Of a stretch of 20,856 nucleotides of DNA, positions 2,347 through 9,448 are shown piece after piece; the first letter of the stretch is position 1; every line of letters begins with the position of its first letter. Below the pieces are notes generated by a model, which saw only the letters and a list, made by a program, of their open reading frames with translations, made no database searches and was not told where the DNA came from. Origin of the DNA: a virus. The translations under genes and the position numbers were made by a program. The DNA is taken from positions 1-20,856 of IMG/VR virus record IMGVR_UViG_3300043446_000255; one strand, written 5' to 3'.

Positions 2347-2583
2347 ATGTCAATCATCAATTCTTATCCAACCGATGCAAATCTTTCCTATAGTGATAAA
2401 TTAATAGGAACAGATGCAGAAGATAGCAATGCCACCAAAAACTTTACTCTTGGAAGTATTCTATCTATGCCTCTACCAAATGTGCCTGTATATGCAAACA
2501 ATGCTGCCGCTATTGCAGGCGGCCTTGCTGTTGGACGTGTGTACAGAATCACAGGGACAGGTCAACTAGGAATCGTTTATTAA
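2347..2583 (+). CDS. Small fibre-tip-like protein with Ala/Gly-rich C-terminal motif
   Basis: 78-residue protein. The N-terminal half (INSYPTDANLSYSDKLIGT, then TKNFTLGSIL) resembles the phage fibre opening in which a protein lists the value it is to hold before a beta structure. The C-terminal half reads VYANNAAAIAGGLAVGRVYR followed by ITGTGQLGIVY. I recognise this C-terminal pattern (YANNAAAxAGGLxxGxxYR) as a recurrent module at the ends of phage tail or capsid appendage proteins, possibly a trimerising tip. That is family memory, not a search. Start ATG 2347 lies 4 nt after the HNH stop. The stop TAA shares its last base with the next start (TAATG). A virion appendage role is inferred. 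Confidence 0.7.
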   Translation: MSIINSYPTDANLSYSDKLIGTDAEDSNATKNFTLGSILSMPLPNVPVYANNAAAIAGGLAVGRVYRITGTGQLGIVY

Positions 2584-2810
2584 TGGATATCAGAAAAATA
2601 TCAATAGGTCCTGATTACAAGGGTAGTGCAATGCACTACATCGTGGGTCAACGTGTCCTTGGAGACACAAATGAAATTCATTTGATTAAATTCGATGAAA
2701 CAAAAAACTCTTTCAAGATATTTATCATCAATGATAAAGAAGAAGTAGTTCTTTGGAAAGAATTTAATGCCACAATTCCTGTTGCTATTGAGTACAATAT
2801 TAATATTTAA
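2583..2810 (+). CDS. Conserved small protein of the crAss-like fibre/packaging cluster, function unknown
   Basis: 75-residue soluble protein with no signal peptide or membrane segment. It opens MDIRKISIGPDYKGSAMHYI and alternates short beta-like runs (NEIHLIKF, FKIFIINDK, EEVVLWKEF), ending VAIEYNINI. The composition looks like a small beta sandwich or barrel. It overlaps both neighbours by one base in TAATG junctions, so its translation is probably coupled. I think I have seen this protein in related environmental phages, but no function is known to me. Confidence 0.7.
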   Translation: MDIRKISIGPDYKGSAMHYIVGQRVLGDTNEIHLIKFDETKNSFKIFIINDKEEVVLWKEFNATIPVAIEYNINI

Positions 2811-3373
2811 TGAGGTCCCCATTTTATTTTATAGCAAAACCTGTTGATGGTAAAAGGTATGCAAATACCAAAGAAATAGCAGGAGTAGAATTAATCGTTA
2901 GCACATCTGAAGAGGACCATAAATTCTCAAATAGATTTGCAGAAGTGGTTGAAACTCCTCTAGGCTACAATGGTCCTATTGAATCAGGAGATATTTTGCT
3001 TGTACATCATAATGTCTTTAAGTTCTATAATGACATTAGAGGCAGACAGAAAAGTGGTAAGTCATTCTTTAGAGATGATTTGTTTTTTATAGAAACAGAC
3101 CAATTCTTTATGTTTAAAAAGAACGACAGATGGAATGCTTATAGCAGGTATTGTTTTGTAAAACCAATAAAGCCAACAGAAAGCTACATCAAGAAACCAT
3201 TTAGCGAGGAGCCTCTCATGGGTATAATGAAATATCCTAATGAATACCTATTAACACAAGGTATAAAAGCAGGAGACTTAGTTTGTTTTAGTCCTGATAG
3301 TGAATATGAATTTACTGTTGATGAAGAAAAGTTGTACAGAATGTATGACCATCAGATAACAATTAAACTATGA
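2810..3373 (+). CDS. Hypothetical protein, possible tandem GroES-like (co-chaperonin-fold) domains
   Basis: 187 residues. The order of elements at ~4-75 recalls the GroES fold: FYFIAKPVDGKRYANTKEIAG, a loop-like acidic segment at ~31-40, then AEVVETP and SGDILLVHHNVFKF, comparable to GroES 'V-KP...T-AGI...G-V...GD-V'. Residues ~115-187 may repeat it, ending AGDLVCFSPDSEYEFTVDEE and LYRMYDHQITIKL, comparable to the GroES C-terminal strand pair. Phage co-chaperonins such as T4 gp31 show that a phage can supply its own GroES partner for capsid folding, but this protein is longer than the ~95-110 residues usual for that family. The similarity is weak, by eye, and the fold could instead be a generic small beta barrel. 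It has TAATG and ATGA junctions with its neighbours, directly before the dioxygenase. Confidence 0.6.
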   Translation: MRSPFYFIAKPVDGKRYANTKEIAGVELIVSTSEEDHKFSNRFAEVVETPLGYNGPIESGDILLVHHNVFKFYNDIRGRQKSGKSFFRDDLFFIETDQFFMFKKNDRWNAYSRYCFVKPIKPTESYIKKPFSEEPLMGIMKYPNEYLLTQGIKAGDLVCFSPDSEYEFTVDEEKLYRMYDHQITIKL

Positions 3374-3846
3374 ATCTACTAACATTTGATAATGTACTAA
3401 AACACCCCAATGACTATGTATCACAAATTCACTTACACGGATTTCAGGATTTGGCAGATGGATATAACATATTTAGAAACATTCAGCCACGAGACAATAA
3501 CGATGAGTTTGCCAAATTTGTCTCTAATCTATTTCTTGACCACAGAGTAGAATTTAACTTTGTAAGAAAGTCTCCATTTAATCAACAAGAACCTAACTTT
3601 ATTCATACCGATGAGATGATGGGAGATATTACTTGTATATTGTATTTGAATCAAATGTCTCCAAGTGAAGACGGTACAACAATATACGATGAAGATAAAA
3701 CCCCAATAGTTAAAGTTTACTCAAAGTTTAATAGGATGGTAGCTTTCAACTCTGATGCTTTTCATTCTAGGAATATATTTGAGAATTTTGGAGAAGGAGA
3801 ATCTGCTAGACTTATTCAAGTGGCGTTCTTAAGAGAGATTCAATGA
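3370..3846 (+). CDS. 2-oxoglutarate/Fe(II)-dependent dioxygenase (DUF6445-like)
   Basis: 158-residue enzyme of the 2-oxoglutarate/Fe(II) oxygenase superfamily, predicted to couple O2 and 2-oxoglutarate decarboxylation to hydroxylation of an unknown substrate. The iron-binding HxD...H triad is visible as NFIHTDEMMGDITCILYLN (His79, Asp81) and NSDAFHSRNIF (His132). Arg147 in ESARLIQVAF is placed to bind the 2-oxoglutarate carboxylate. The order beta core, TDITCILYLN strand, DGTTIYDED loop and C-terminal beta strand fits the prolyl-hydroxylase-like group, and the short length is close to a minimal catalytic domain. It is joined by ATGA overlaps to both flanking genes. The context is virion and packaging genes, so modification of a virion or host protein is possible, but nothing in the sequence fixes the substrate. 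Confidence 0.78.
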   Translation: MNLLTFDNVLKHPNDYVSQIHLHGFQDLADGYNIFRNIQPRDNNDEFAKFVSNLFLDHRVEFNFVRKSPFNQQEPNFIHTDEMMGDITCILYLNQMSPSEDGTTIYDEDKTPIVKVYSKFNRMVAFNSDAFHSRNIFENFGEGESARLIQVAFLREIQ

Positions 3847-4133
3847 GAGAAGTAAAAGAAATAAAATTAAGAATAATTGAGGCGGGATATAAAGCCGTGA
3901 CTCATTTAATTAAAGTTGCCGAGGAAGACATTATAAATAATGATTCTGATAATATTGAAGTGGCTGCCGATAAAATGAAGAATGCAGCAGCTGCAAAAAA
4001 ACTAGCTATATTTGATGCCTTTGAAATTCTTAATAGAATAGAGTCAGAAAAAGAAAGTCTTGAAGCGGTAGAAAGAGGAATAAGTAAAACAGACACTAAA
4101 CAAGGATTTGCAGAGCGAAGGTCAAAACAATAA
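3843..4133 (+). CDS. Small helical protein upstream of terL (candidate small terminase subunit)
   Basis: 96-residue protein that looks almost wholly helical: MREVKEIKLRIIEAGYKAVT, then HLIKVAEEDI and an Ala/Lys-rich helix (DKMKNAAAAKKLAIFDAFEI), followed by a charged, flexible C-terminus (TKQGFAERRSKQ). It starts in an ATGA overlap with the dioxygenase and ends 1 nt before the preferred TerL start. Small terminase subunits usually sit in this position, are mainly helical and bind DNA as rings, so a TerS role is plausible by position. At 96 residues it is short for TerS and lacks an obvious helix-turn-helix. The alternative is a conserved packaging accessory protein. Confidence 0.7.
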   Translation: MREVKEIKLRIIEAGYKAVTHLIKVAEEDIINNDSDNIEVAADKMKNAAAAKKLAIFDAFEILNRIESEKESLEAVERGISKTDTKQGFAERRSKQ

Positions 4134-4134
4134 C

Positions 4135-6357
4135 TTGTGCCTAGTCCTTAAGGACCAAATACAGGCCGCCGTCATCTCTAATAAAAATAGAGTGAGGTCA
4201 TGGCTATATGGATATAACGAACAGTATGATGTAGTTGTCATATCCAAAAGCGGTCAAATAGGAGATATAATAGAAATATCAGGATTAAAAATTGCTTTGC
4301 CTGCTGCTCCTGATAAATGCTTTGCAAGAGATTCAAAACCATCAGAGCAATATTGGGAGCGTCAAGATATTCCTAGAGACTTAGCAAAGATTCAATCTAT
4401 ATTCCAATGGAACGAAAAGCCAAAGGAGTTCAAGGATAGATGGGTTGATTATATTGAGCAGGAGTTTGACTACAGAGAGCAAGGCTATTGGTTTATGAAC
4501 AACGGTGTGAAGACCTATATTACAGGCTCACACTATATGTATTTGCAATGGTCTAGTATTGATGTAGGCTATCCTGACTTTAGAGAGGCTAATCGAATCT
4601 ATTGGATTTTTTGGGAGGCTTGTAGAGCAGACCCAAGAAGCTTTGGAATGATATATCTTAAGATTAGACGCTCAGGATTTTCGTTCATGTCATCATCTGA
4701 ATGCGTGAACATAGGTACACTTGCACGTGACTCTCGTATTGGTATCTTGTCTAAAACAGGAGCCGATGCAAAGAAAATGTTTACTGATAAGGTTGTTCCC
4801 ATCAATAGCCGTCTTCCATTCTTTTTCAAACCTATCATGGATGGTATGGACAAACCTAAAACTGAATTAGCTTTTAGGGTTCCTGCATCTAAGATTACAA
4901 AGAAGAATATGTATGAATCAGATGATTCAGAGATTGATGGCCTTGATACTACAATAGATTGGAAGAACACCGAAGACAACTCTTATGATGGTGAAAAGCT
5001 TTTATTCTTGGCTCATGACGAATCGGGAAAATGGACAAAGCCTGTGAACATCAAGGAGAATTGGCGTGTAACCAAGACTTGTTTGCGTTTGGGTAGCAAG
5101 ATTATTGGTAAATGTATGATGGGTTCTACCTCAAATGCTTTAAATAAAGGCGGTCAGAACTTCAAAGACATTTATGAGGAGTCAAATGTAAAGTATAGAA
5201 ATGCAAATGGTCAAACTAAATCAGGGCTCTATGCCATATTTATTCCAATGGAATGGAACATGGAAGGGTTTATTGATATATATGGTCATCCTGTATTTAG
5301 AAAACCTGATAAACCAATAAAAGGAGTTGATGGGAATTGGATTACAAATGGAGCTGTTGATTATTGGGAAGCTGAAGTTGATTCATTAAAAAATGATGCA
5401 GATGCATTGAATGAATTTTACAGGCAATTTCCTCGTACTGAATCCCACGCTTTCCGTGATGAAAGCAAGCAGTCATTATTCAATCTAACTAAAATATATC
5501 AGCAGATTGATTACAATGACTCAATGATTAAGGAGCATTACCTTACCCGTGGCTCCTTCTCTTGGAAGGATGGAATTAGAGATACTCAAGTAATATGGAC
5601 ACCTGACTCTAGGGGAAGATTTCTAGTAAGTTGGTTCCCACAAAAACATTTACAGAATAATGTACATATAAGAAATGGAATTAAGTATCCAGGCAATGAA
5701 CACATCGGTTCATTTGGTTGTGACTCTTATGATATTTCTGCTGTAGTTGGAGGAAGAGGTTCTAACGGAGCGTTACATGGAATGACTAAGTTCCACATGG
5801 ATGATGCTCCTGTAAATGAGTTCTTTCTAGAATACATAGCAAGACCTCAAACTGCTGAGATATTTTTTGAAGAAGTTTTAATGGCTTGCGTATTTTATGG
5901 TATGCCAATCTTGGTTGAGAACAACAAACCACGATTGCTTTACCATTTAAAAAATAGAGGATATCGAGGGTTTTCAATCAATAGACCTGACAAACAGTTT
6001 GCTAAACTGACAAAGACTGAACGAGAATTAGGCGGTATACCTAACTCATCAGAAGATGTTAAGCAAGCTCACGCATCGGCAATTGAGTCATACATTGAGA
6101 AATTTGTAGGACTTGATTTAGAAGGAAAGTACAGGGATGCTGACCTGATGGGGACAATGCCATTTACTAGAACGCTTGAGGATTGGGCTAAATTTGATAT
6201 AAATGACAGAACAAGATTTGATGCTTGTATTAGTTCAGGACTAGCTATAATGGCCAATCAAAAGCACCTATATGTGCCTGAAAAAAAAGAATCAAAATTA
6301 ATTATTAACTTCGCTAAATATAAGAACGAAGGGATAATCAGTCAATTAGAAAAATAA
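4135..6357 (+). CDS. terL: Terminase large subunit (crAss-like)
   Basis: 740-residue packaging motor that hydrolyses ATP to drive DNA into the prohead and cuts the concatemer. I prefer the TTG at 4135 (MCLVLKDQIQAAV), which fits the N-terminus I recall for relatives; a TTG at 4108 would add nine residues overlapping the previous gene. Numbering from 4135: ATPase domain ~90-400 with a P-loop-like KIRRSGFSFMSSS (176-188) and Walker B LLFLAHDE (Asp295, Glu296), followed by CMMGSTSNAL, which fits the coupling motif. RNase H-like nuclease domain ~525-710 with FGCDSYD (Asp530, Asp533), LVENNKP (Glu595) and RFDAC (Asp696). Notable: the usual GK(S/T) lysine of the P-loop is Phe here. The ATPase and nuclease acidic residues are otherwise intact. 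An endonuclease gene begins at the very next base. Confidence 0.93.
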   Translation: MCLVLKDQIQAAVISNKNRVRSWLYGYNEQYDVVVISKSGQIGDIIEISGLKIALPAAPDKCFARDSKPSEQYWERQDIPRDLAKIQSIFQWNEKPKEFKDRWVDYIEQEFDYREQGYWFMNNGVKTYITGSHYMYLQWSSIDVGYPDFREANRIYWIFWEACRADPRSFGMIYLKIRRSGFSFMSSSECVNIGTLARDSRIGILSKTGADAKKMFTDKVVPINSRLPFFFKPIMDGMDKPKTELAFRVPASKITKKNMYESDDSEIDGLDTTIDWKNTEDNSYDGEKLLFLAHDESGKWTKPVNIKENWRVTKTCLRLGSKIIGKCMMGSTSNALNKGGQNFKDIYEESNVKYRNANGQTKSGLYAIFIPMEWNMEGFIDIYGHPVFRKPDKPIKGVDGNWITNGAVDYWEAEVDSLKNDADALNEFYRQFPRTESHAFRDESKQSLFNLTKIYQQIDYNDSMIKEHYLTRGSFSWKDGIRDTQVIWTPDSRGRFLVSWFPQKHLQNNVHIRNGIKYPGNEHIGSFGCDSYDISAVVGGRGSNGALHGMTKFHMDDAPVNEFFLEYIARPQTAEIFFEEVLMACVFYGMPILVENNKPRLLYHLKNRGYRGFSINRPDKQFAKLTKTERELGGIPNSSEDVKQAHASAIESYIEKFVGLDLEGKYRDADLMGTMPFTRTLEDWAKFDINDRTRFDACISSGLAIMANQKHLYVPEKKESKLIINFAKYKNEGIISQLEK

Positions 6358-7011
6358 GTGGCTTGCGTGTATAGGCATATTAGAAAAGACTTGAACCTTC
6401 CTTTTTACATAGGAATAGGAAAAGAAGTTTCTAGGGCGTACTGCAAGCTTAATAGAAACAAACATTGGAATAACATAGTTGGAAAAACTAATTATGAGAT
6501 TCAGATTCTTTTTGACGATGTAAGCTATGAGTTTGCAAAAGAAAAAGAAAAAGAGTTTATTGAATTGTACAAAAGAAAACAAGATGGTGGAATCCTTTGC
6601 AATCTTACAAAAGGTGGTGATGGGGTCCTTGGCATAATTCATACTGAGGAAGCCAAAAAGAAAATGGGAGAGCCGAACAAAGGAAAGACCATATCAGAAT
6701 GGCATAAACAAAGAATATCTGAGTTTAATAAAGGTAAAAAATGTTCTGAAGAGACAAAGAAAAAAATGTCTGAAAGTAGAATAGGAAAAAATTTAGGCAG
6801 AAAAGCTTCTGAAGCTACAAGAAAAAAGATGTCTAATTCAGCTATAAAAGGAGAGAATCATTATTTCTCTAAACTTAAGAAATCAGATATATTAGAAATA
6901 AGGAGATTAAGCTCTGAAGGAATTGGGCAAAATAAAATATCCAAATTATTTGGAGTAGCTAAGTTTACTATATATAGCATTTTAAAAGGACTTACTTGGA
7001 AACACGTATAG
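6358..7011 (+). CDS. GIY-YIG homing endonuclease with NUMOD3 repeats and C-terminal HTH
   Basis: 217 residues, GTG start directly after the TerL stop (TAAGTG). Residues ~3-88 form a divergent GIY-YIG nuclease: CVYRHIRKD (in place of GIY) and FYIGIGKEVSRAY (16-28, the YIG strand and catalytic-arginine region), a KEFIEL helix carrying the expected acidic residue near Glu66, and NLTKGGDG. Residues ~95-160 hold NUMOD3-type DNA-binding repeats (HTEEAKKKM, SEETKKKMSESRIGK, SEATRKKMSN). Residues ~172-217 are a resolvase-like helix-turn-helix (KKSDILEIRRLSSEGIGQNK through the TIYSILKGLTW helix). This modular build is typical of phage homing endonucleases. It sits between terL and portal with spacings of 0 and 1 nt, so it uses their transcript. 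The Lys-rich composition differs from its neighbours. It is a free-standing passenger; no intron flanks were seen. Confidence 0.87.
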   Translation: MACVYRHIRKDLNLPFYIGIGKEVSRAYCKLNRNKHWNNIVGKTNYEIQILFDDVSYEFAKEKEKEFIELYKRKQDGGILCNLTKGGDGVLGIIHTEEAKKKMGEPNKGKTISEWHKQRISEFNKGKKCSEETKKKMSESRIGKNLGRKASEATRKKMSNSAIKGENHYFSKLKKSDILEIRRLSSEGIGQNKISKLFGVAKFTIYSILKGLTWKHV

Positions 7012-7012
7012 A

Positions 7013-9448
7013 ATGAAAAACGTAACAATAAATATTCAACCTACATCTTTTCCTAGTCAGTTGGCTACTGATGCTGAAAAGGCTACTATGGAGTATGGCC
7101 TACAAGTAGCAAATTCTATCCAATATGAGTGGTTCAGGAAAGATGGAAACTCATGTAGATATTACGGTCAGTGGCAAGATTTCAGAAGATTAAGACTCTA
7201 TGCTCGTGGAGAGCAACCTATTGGAAAATATAAAAATGAACTTGCAATAGATGGAGACTTATCTTATTTGAATCTTGATTGGACTCCTGTTCCTATTCTT
7301 CCTAAGTTCATTGACATTGTTGTAAACGGAATGTCTGATAGGCTTTTCAAGGTTAAGGCGTACGCTCAGGATGCGATGTCTCAAGCTAAAAGAAGTAAGT
7401 ATCAAGACCTAATTGAAGGACAAATGGTAGCTAAACCTGTGCTTGAAATCATTCAAGAACAAACAGGTGCTAATCCATTTATGATGGACCCTGAAGAATT
7501 ACCTGAAACAGATGAGGAACTATCACTATATATGCAGCTTAACTATAAGCCTGCAATAGAGATAGCTGAAGAGGAGGCTATTAATACCATATTTGATGAA
7601 AATCATTACGATGACATTAGGAAAAGAATAGACTATGATATTACTGTAATTGGTATTGGTATTGCTAAGCATGAGTTTCTTCAAGGAACAGGAGTTAAAC
7701 TTTCTTATGTAGACCCTGCTAATGTTGTTTATAGTTATACTGAGGACCCATTCTTTAAAGATTGTTTTTATTGGGGAGAAATTAAAACAGTACCTATCAC
7801 TGAGCTATTGAAGATAGACCAATCGCTCACAAAAGAAGACCTTCAACAAATCACTCAGTACAGTCAATCATGGTATGATTATTACAACGTTGCTCAGTTC
7901 TATGAGAACAGTATGTTCTACAGAGATACCTGCACGTTATTGTATTTTAATTATAAGACCACTAAGAAGATTGTTTATAAGAAAAAGAACTTAGAAGGTG
8001 GTGGTTCTAGGATAATTGAAAAAGATGAGACTTTCAATCCTCCTGTTGAAATGATGGAGGAAGGAAACTTTGAGAAGATTGAGAAGACCATTGATGTATG
8101 GTATGAAGGCATCTTGGTTATGGGTACGAATATCCTTCTTCAATGGAAGATGTCTGAGAATATGGTAAGACCTAAGTCAGCTTCTCAGCACGCTCTTCCA
8201 AATTATGTAGCTTGTGCCCCACGTATGTATAAAGGAGTCATTGAGTCATTGTGTAGACGAATGATTCCTTTTGCTGATTTGATTCAAATCACTCACTTAA
8301 AATTACAGCAAGTAATTGCACGTACAGTTCCTGATGGTGTATTCATTGATGCAGATGGTCTTAACGAGATTGACTTGGGAACAGGTAATGCTTATAACCC
8401 TGAGGATGCATTGAGGCTATACTTCCAAACAGGTAGTGTTATTGGTAGAAGCTACACTCAAGATGGAGACTTTAATAATGCTAGAGTTCCTATTCAGCAA
8501 TTGACATCAAACTCAGGGGCATCTAAGACTCAGATGTTGATTACCAACATGAATCATTACATTGATATGATTCGTTCTGTGACAGGACTCAATGAGGCTA
8601 GAGATGGTTCTAATCCTGACCCTAACTCTTTGGTTGGTCTACAGAAGTTAGCAGCGTTGAACTCAAATACAGCAACAAGACATATTCTTGATGCTTCATT
8701 GTATTTGTATCGTTCAATGGCTGAGGCTTTGACATATAGAGTAGCTGATATACTAGAGTACTCTGATTTTGCAGATGAATTTGCTAATCAAATTGGAAAG
8801 TACAATGTATCTATCTTGGATGAGATTAAGTATTTGTACATTTATGACTTTGGTATCTTCATTGAGATATCTCCTGATGAGGAGCAGAAGGCTCAACTTG
8901 AGGCCAATATTCAAATGGCATTGTCTAAAGGAGACATTAATCTTGAGGATGCAATTGACATTCGTGAGATTAGAAATCTAAAGCTTGCCAATCAGTTGCT
9001 CAAGATGAAAAGAATGAGGACTCAAGACCGTGCTGAGAAAATGGCTATGCAACAGCAAGCCATGCAAGCACAACAGCAAATGCAAGTTCAGCAGATGGCA
9101 GCAGAGACTGCTATGCAAAAGATACAACTAGAAACTCAAGCGAAGATGCAATTGAAACAAGCTGAGGTTGCATTTGAGATTGAAAGAAATAAAAACGAGG
9201 CTGCTCTTAAATCTCAATTGATGAGAGAAGAGTATGAATATAATTTAAGATTGAAAGGTATGGACACCGTTAGTTTAACTGAACGGGAGAAGTTGAAAGA
9301 AAATGCAAAAGCAAAAAGAATTAGTCAACAGAATACCGAGCAATCTAAACTTATTAATCAAAGGAAGAACAATCTACCTCCGATGAACTTTGAATCAAAT
9401 GAGGATAGTTTAGATGGCTTTGATTTGGCTGAATTTGAGCCTCGATAA
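7013..9448 (+). CDS. Portal protein (crAss-like)
   Basis: 811-residue portal expected to form the dodecameric ring at the capsid vertex through which DNA passes and on which TerL and later the tail connectors dock. Support: position right after terL, length fitting large podovirus portals, and portal-like N-terminal sequence: FRRLRLYARGEQPIGKYKNE, the LPKFIDIVVNGMSDRLFKVK helix and a core with DITVIGIGIAKHEF at ~210-223. The C-terminal ~120 residues (from ~664) are strikingly Gln/Met-rich and helical (MAMQQQAMQAQQQMQVQQMA), a long coiled coil probably making the barrel or a flexible internal tail. The final ~30 residues are acidic (SNEDSLDGFDLAEFEP). ATG at 7013 is 1 nt after the GIY-YIG stop. 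The call rests on context plus recalled family signature. Confidence 0.88.
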   Translation: MKNVTINIQPTSFPSQLATDAEKATMEYGLQVANSIQYEWFRKDGNSCRYYGQWQDFRRLRLYARGEQPIGKYKNELAIDGDLSYLNLDWTPVPILPKFIDIVVNGMSDRLFKVKAYAQDAMSQAKRSKYQDLIEGQMVAKPVLEIIQEQTGANPFMMDPEELPETDEELSLYMQLNYKPAIEIAEEEAINTIFDENHYDDIRKRIDYDITVIGIGIAKHEFLQGTGVKLSYVDPANVVYSYTEDPFFKDCFYWGEIKTVPITELLKIDQSLTKEDLQQITQYSQSWYDYYNVAQFYENSMFYRDTCTLLYFNYKTTKKIVYKKKNLEGGGSRIIEKDETFNPPVEMMEEGNFEKIEKTIDVWYEGILVMGTNILLQWKMSENMVRPKSASQHALPNYVACAPRMYKGVIESLCRRMIPFADLIQITHLKLQQVIARTVPDGVFIDADGLNEIDLGTGNAYNPEDALRLYFQTGSVIGRSYTQDGDFNNARVPIQQLTSNSGASKTQMLITNMNHYIDMIRSVTGLNEARDGSNPDPNSLVGLQKLAALNSNTATRHILDASLYLYRSMAEALTYRVADILEYSDFADEFANQIGKYNVSILDEIKYLYIYDFGIFIEISPDEEQKAQLEANIQMALSKGDINLEDAIDIREIRNLKLANQLLKMKRMRTQDRAEKMAMQQQAMQAQQQMQVQQMAAETAMQKIQLETQAKMQLKQAEVAFEIERNKNEAALKSQLMREEYEYNLRLKGMDTVSLTEREKLKENAKAKRISQQNTEQSKLINQRKNNLPPMNFESNEDSLDGFDLAEFEPR

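Follow-up and report, generated by a model that had tools for sequence, protein, structure and literature searches.

A predicted tandem GroES-like co-chaperonin and a putative accessory protein hydroxylase in a swap slot of a phage late operon

Two overlapping genes just upstream of the packaging genes of a virus, analysed here over the whole 20,856 bases of record IMGVR_UViG_3300043446_000255 (positions 1 to 20,856, hereafter the window, a longer assembly being absent), are in our view fairly probably a core tandem co-chaperonin gene and an accessory protein-hydroxylase cassette that sits in a swap slot among late genes. They would thus represent two separate things in one late operon. The 187-aa product of the first gene would most likely serve, beside an ordinary Cpn10, as an additional lid of the GroEL that the phage itself encodes; it would bind GroEL, form a ring and assist the folding of late proteins of the virion or the packaging machinery. 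The 158-aa product of the second gene, whose slot separates the co-chaperonin from the packaging genes, would be expressed late and would hydroxylate a protein, probably on proline, with 2-oxoglutarate (2OG) and O2, as the families involved suggest for the reaction. The family of viruses with a GroES-like gene just 5' of the packaging genes probably has Flavobacteria as hosts.

The genes of this region follow the conserved order hyp75, GroES-like gene, slot, p96 and terminase large subunit (TerL), and all of them are located on the plus strand of the window. The 75-aa conserved protein hyp75 (2583..2810, taken from the ORF list) adjoins the GroES-like gene upstream, a position that is kept in nearly all relatives with contigs extending that far. 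The GroES-like gene (2810..3373, 187 aa) and the oxygenase gene (3370..3846, 158 aa) lie where the initial annotation had placed them, and they share an ATGA (3370..3373), in which the TGA stop of the 187-aa ORF overlaps the ATG of the 158-aa ORF and which forms the left edge of the slot. At 3843, another ATGA links the oxygenase gene with p96 (3843..4133), a 96-aa ORF that is conserved in relatives and represents the right edge of the slot. The 3' end of p96 overlaps the start of TerL (4108..6357; phrog_6681, E 1.2e-180). No family match was obtained for p96 in PHROG and Pfam profile searches, and we infer from its location only that it may hold the position of the terminase small subunit. 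Downstream of TerL follow the portal gene (7013..9448; phrog_6547, E 1.9e-138) and genes for virion structural proteins, so that the PHROG matches agree with the previously proposed neighbourhood of virion and terminase genes.

Other features of the window were recorded as well. Positions 6-1538 encode a tail-fibre-like protein with a C-terminal Peptidase_S74 chaperone-of-endosialidase domain. Homing-endonuclease-like genes with HNH_3/NUMOD4 and NUMOD3 matches are located at 1818-2342, beside a 109-aa ORF, and at 6358-7011, between TerL and portal, and the gene at the TerL/portal junction is found at the same junction in loci L127, L129, L130 and L148. An in-frame insert of 309 or 318 codons with Hint and LAGLIDADG matches, i.e. 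an intein with a homing endonuclease, occurs at one and the same place of TerL in several relatives (L045, 5288-6214; L139, 2752-3705; also L066, L148 and L247), and the TerL gene of the window is without this insert. The comparison of the window with phage records at the DNA level returned a single weak match, to a structural gene of ctfjg026.

The 187-aa protein had been described as showing the GroES-like order of elements twice, which was borne out by structure prediction. The AlphaFold model, which was built from 59 relatives (pLDDT 82.5), comprises two domains, with domain 1 spanning approximately residues 1-106 and domain 2 approximately residues 107-187. Its best match in the PDB was chain R of 7ekq (Foldseek E 3e-5; VIA Z 10.8), with an alignment of 158 residues at an rmsd of 4.4 that spans residues 1-187, followed by single Cpn10s, GroES and T4 gp31, which matched residues 107-187 with Z scores of 7 to 8.5. 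Domain 1 alone resembled the GroES-like domain of MDR dehydrogenases (Z 4-5). The entry 7ekq represents the Chlamydomonas chloroplast ClpP/co-chaperonin complex, which includes CPN11, CPN20 and CPN23 (PMC8889267); with 194 residues, chain R fits the tandem Cpn20 type in size, and we take it to be of this type on the basis of its length and of that publication. The likeness to the Cpn20 type consists in two Cpn10 folds arranged head to tail in about 190 aa and in the coexistence with a chaperonin and a Cpn10 of the ordinary type, whereas there is no significant sequence identity, the loop of domain 2 is degenerate in the phage protein and the phage gene is part of a packaging operon.

At the sequence level, residues 1-178 of the protein matched positions 1-190 of the 200 positions of phrog_13932 ('co-chaperonin GroES') with an E value of 4.8e-22, which chance would not explain. 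The window protein itself gave no match to Pfam Cpn10 (PF00166) at the curated cut-off, which counts against our reading; the cut-off was passed by the C-terminal halves of phi13:2 gp096 (1.4e-7) and phi38:1 gp089 (2e-6). Searching the PDB with the sequence by itself likewise returned no match, and the profile of the protein reached GroES at E 0.06. The annotation chaperonin cpn10/co-chaperonin GroES is carried by a relative in Elemovirus (gp30, 37% identity) as well as by gp089 of Cellulophaga phage phi38:1 (Pervagoviridae) and gp096 of phi13:2 (Pachyviridae), and the core genes of the Pervagoviridae include chaperonin cpn10 (PMC8776804). These proteins belong to the same family and their genes share the place close 5' of TerL, with one 300-bp ORF intervening in phi13:2, but in contrast to the window none of the three genomes has an oxygenase beside the GroES-like gene. 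The median omega (NG86) of the co-chaperonin was 0.047, which indicates purifying selection.

Profile comparisons with the Cpn10 that the phages encode themselves gave an E value of 3.7e-6 for domain 2 and a weak match for domain 1 (P 0.009), in which the mobile loops are nevertheless in register: hhalign placed ELIVSTSEED of domain 1 on GLILSGED of the phage Cpn10 (SGLILSGED...), and members from Elemovirus have NGLILN at this place. Residues 31-40, the least confident part of domain 1, and residues 121-130 form low-confidence blocks of the model that match the location of the GroES mobile loop. Based on model confidence, hhalign register and the alignment with Elemovirus, the probable mobile loop of domain 1 (residues 20-42, approximately) was assigned to 2867..2935 on the plus strand. 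With respect to the hydrophobic tripeptide that binds GroEL, domain 1 has residues of the ELIV/LIL type, from which we infer that its loop may bind GroEL; domain 2 is without a clear tripeptide in the group of the window, a further point against our reading. When the profiles of domains 1 and 2 were compared with each other, only their shared overlapping end matched, so that the basis of the tandem claim is the predicted structure and not a repeat within the sequence. From the model, on which the case for domain 1 mainly depends, we conclude that the 187-aa protein consists of two GroES-like domains. The annotation of the family as co-chaperonin already existed, and the tandem protein would provide a Cpn20-like arrangement outside plastids; in the open-access literature we found no statement that the phrog_13932 protein is tandem, nor one on tandem GroES in phages.

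In the window, which is a 20.9-kb fragment, no GroEL gene was seen, a point that also weighs against our reading, and the evidence for a GroEL partner comes from near-complete relatives. Among 27 records, made up of three reference phages and of relatives represented by large contigs, GroEL is encoded in 24 and a conventional single-domain Cpn10 in 25, the misses including two contigs of 53-54 kb, and the two genes are close together wherever both were found. With separate GroEL and Cpn10 genes present in the relatives, the tandem protein would represent a third chaperonin component, as Cpn20 does in chloroplasts, where tandem Cpn10 domains coexist with ordinary Cpn10 (PMC5780408). T4 gp31 is likewise a phage-encoded co-chaperonin of the GroES fold (domain 2 vs 1g31, Z 7.1) and replaces host GroES in its role (PMC6318259); it differs in being single-domain, and the group of the window carries its own GroEL and Cpn10 as well.

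The 158-aa protein had been assigned to the 2OG/Fe(II) dioxygenases on account of an intact HxD...H and an Arg, and these residues could be confirmed as H79, D81 and H132 (iron) and R147 (2OG). H79, D81 and R147 are present in 31/31 diverse members and H132 in 30/31. The protein scored 28.6 bits against Pfam 2OG-FeII_Oxy_3 (PF13640; curated cut-off 27), and the nearest fold to its model (pLDDT 90.2) was PHD2 (Z 15.3, rmsd 3.4, 151/158 residues). Also near were Trichoplax PHD and the PPHD of Pseudomonas putida, either by itself or bound to EF-Tu, with a Z score of 14.2 and an rmsd of 2.7 over 149 residues for PPHD:EF-Tu (4iw3). PHD2 and PPHD share with the window protein a double-stranded beta-helix that extends along the entire chain and the order HxD...H...R, whereas the window oxygenase is shorter, shows 15-20% identity and has a longer spacing between His and Arg. 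R147 begins the strand 148-156 after the distal His, so that H132 and R147 are 15 residues apart, compared to about 9 as is typical of PHD2, and this long spacing also speaks against our reading. Taken together, the 158-aa protein is a 2OG/Fe(II) oxygenase with a predicted PHD/PPHD-like fold and most likely a protein hydroxylase of the prolyl type, which makes the earlier proposal that a protein is hydroxylated plausible.

A protein search with the oxygenase in 50,697 phage records found nothing at E 0.01, the matches to cyanophages by tblastn were partial with E values of 0.02 or worse, and bacterial genomes contributed a single relative (39% identical), located in a MAG contig with phage-like genes (L342). 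The 2OG-Fe(II) oxygenases of T4-like cyanophages (phrog_1644 and phrog_274) belong to the same Pfam superfamily and are the best PHROG matches, but the similarity is weak and partial and they reside in other phages and other gene neighbourhoods. Both PHROGs match 2OG oxygenases over the catalytic region and carry the names 'minor coat protein' and 'DNA endonuclease V', which look wrongly transferred.

The initial annotation regarded the two genes as coupled, with a companion that helps folding or holds the substrate of the enzyme. The contents of the slot were determined at 103 distinct loci, which were retrieved with the co-chaperonin alone and from which exact block duplicates were removed; since the best 80 loci per query were retained and more than 600 co-chaperonin loci exist, the counts describe the relatives of the queries. 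The slot holds the oxygenase found in the window (the first oxygenase) at 50 of these loci, once together with an amidase, and is empty at 41; a second 2OG oxygenase of 188 aa was found at nine loci (once together with an amidase), a SET-domain protein at two and an amidase alone at one. PF13640 matches at most once per genome and does not match in genomes with an empty slot. Thus, the GroES-like gene often occurs without the first oxygenase (53/103), and the reverse, a first oxygenase without the GroES-like gene, was not found where both are visible: at every placeable locus among 157 loci of the phage group the first oxygenase is in the slot, so that a link of the enzyme to this locus may still exist.

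The second oxygenase shows a conserved HxD...H...R of its own and exceeds the cut-off of DUF6445, a family that the first oxygenase matches more weakly, and this shared signal suggests that the two enzymes are probably distant relatives. It adjoins the co-chaperonin in 71/82 loci; the other 11 comprise six contig ends, two loci in which it lies just upstream of the block and three other phages. In the counts of 82 and 157 loci duplicates were kept, and loci from different queries may share a contig. Both oxygenases occur in tandem at three loci (L211, L230 and L234), and both are under purifying selection, with a median omega (NG86) of 0.085 for the first and 0.12 for the second. The SET-domain protein (125 aa; Pfam SET 6e-8), which bears the motifs NHS and EEILVNY, was detected at three loci, always in the slot (L063, 3099-3473; L305; L341, 4001-4375). 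The Amidase_2 gene, which encodes 216-218 aa of the endolysin type, is located in the slot either alone or after either oxygenase (L003, L007, L041, L082, L088, L090 and L093).

The contents of the slot change frequently. On a TerL tree made by a quick method from 159 rows and 306 columns, at least 26 changes of slot content are required, compared to a mean of 72 after shuffling, and when well-supported branches only are counted, the oxygenase still requires 7 changes and the empty state 9. A locus with the oxygenase (L055) and one with an empty slot (L261) have co-chaperonin genes that are 98.2% identical, with TerL at 95.8% over 900 bases. Where the slot is empty, the stop codon of the co-chaperonin gene directly overlaps the p96 start, and the inserted genes use the identical ATGA, from which we conclude that the overlap belongs to the operon as such and does not speak for a dedicated pair. 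Likewise, a slot that is variable or empty in many viruses argues for the enzyme as an optional extra and not as a fixed partner of the lid.

These observations bear on how the two genes may be related. That they form one functional unit, in which the oxygenase receives a substrate presented or folded by the co-chaperonin, could be argued from the ATGA overlap between them, from the first oxygenase being found only directly 3' of the GroES-like gene or within the slot, as is nearly always the case for the second, and from three kinds of candidate protein-modifying enzyme in one slot. We nevertheless regard such a unit as improbable, given that the slot is empty in 41/103 loci, that close relatives with and without the oxygenase have near-identical co-chaperonins, that the functionally unrelated amidase also occupies the slot and that ATGA overlaps are ordinary in this operon, including the one between co-chaperonin and p96. 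Of the proposed coupling, the overlap at 3370 is real, but a dedicated two-component unit does not agree with a slot that is otherwise filled in a further 12/103 loci. In the open-access literature we found no paper on a GroES-like/oxygenase pair or on protein hydroxylation in phage virions.

The opposite view, in which the occupants share a tolerated insertion point only and serve unrelated purposes, deserves some weight, although we consider it rather unlikely. The amidase, the frequent swapping on the TerL tree and the homing endonucleases at other junctions nearby would fit a neutral parking place of this kind, whereas all non-empty sampled slots but one hold a 2OG oxygenase or a SET protein, the slot enzymes are under purifying selection without decay, and two distantly related 2OG oxygenases have entered one slot. 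It is, in turn, quite doubtful that the slot serves modification coupled to the chaperonin, such that a GroEL with two lids (Cpn10 and the tandem Cpn20-like protein) would enclose a client, e.g. a capsid or packaging protein, which is modified by plug-in enzymes as it folds in the chamber. The plug-ins would in this case be both of the distantly related 2OG hydroxylases as well as the SET-domain protein, acting as a methyltransferase on the same client.

For the accessory hydroxylase that we favour, we tentatively consider a late or virion protein of the phage as the target and give a lower chance to host EF-Tu or the ribosome, the remainder falling to other targets. A PPHD-like enzyme that tunes translation in the infected host by hydroxylating EF-Tu or a ribosomal protein would be in line with a fold that is about as near to PPHD:EF-Tu (4iw3, Z 14.2) as to many PHD2 entries, with Pro54 of EF-Tu as the target of PPHD (PMC6235002) and with uS12 as a target of the prolyl hydroxylase OGFOD1 (PMC4396695). 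We consider this host-directed role unlikely, as similarity in fold does not transmit the substrate and the gene is located in the packaging region and not among early host-takeover genes.

An action on nucleic acid or on a small molecule (repair, base modification or 2OG drawdown) appears more unlikely still. Such roles have been proposed for cyanophage 2OG-Fe(II) proteins (PMC3037559), and relatives of the second oxygenase are found in metabolism or replication modules, namely beside primase/helicase and metabolic genes in Elemovirus and, in Pseudomonas phage GP100, next to genes for an exonuclease and a phosphatase; these settings indicate that a virion substrate is not required. However, the closest folds are protein prolyl hydroxylases, the position is among late genes, and L248, from another phage, has a 40%-identical relative of the second oxygenase that is flanked by the two terminase subunit genes, small and large. 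Together with the bacterial MAG contig L342, where a tape-measure-like fragment and a DUF6950 gene precede the relative of the first oxygenase, L248 supports a late-gene or virion setting. A collagen-like substrate found no support, as the window contains no Gly-X-Y run of 6 or more and a run of 8 or more occurs in 2/73 long loci. The association of Pro, Lys, Asn, Asp and His columns of hyp75, the GroES-like protein, p96 and TerL with the presence of the oxygenase gave no usable signal, the independent pairs being too few.

Little work has addressed protein hydroxylation in bacteriophages, whose 2OG oxygenases are usually classed as auxiliary metabolic genes; here, a predicted PHD/PPHD-like oxygenase keeps a fixed position within a large group of phages from aquatic habitats. 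Since natural pairs of viruses with and without the gene are otherwise very close, the question of its substrate is directly testable in virions and infected cells. The tandem co-chaperonin, if the model holds, would provide a compact model for how an even number of GroES domains meets a seven-fold chaperonin.
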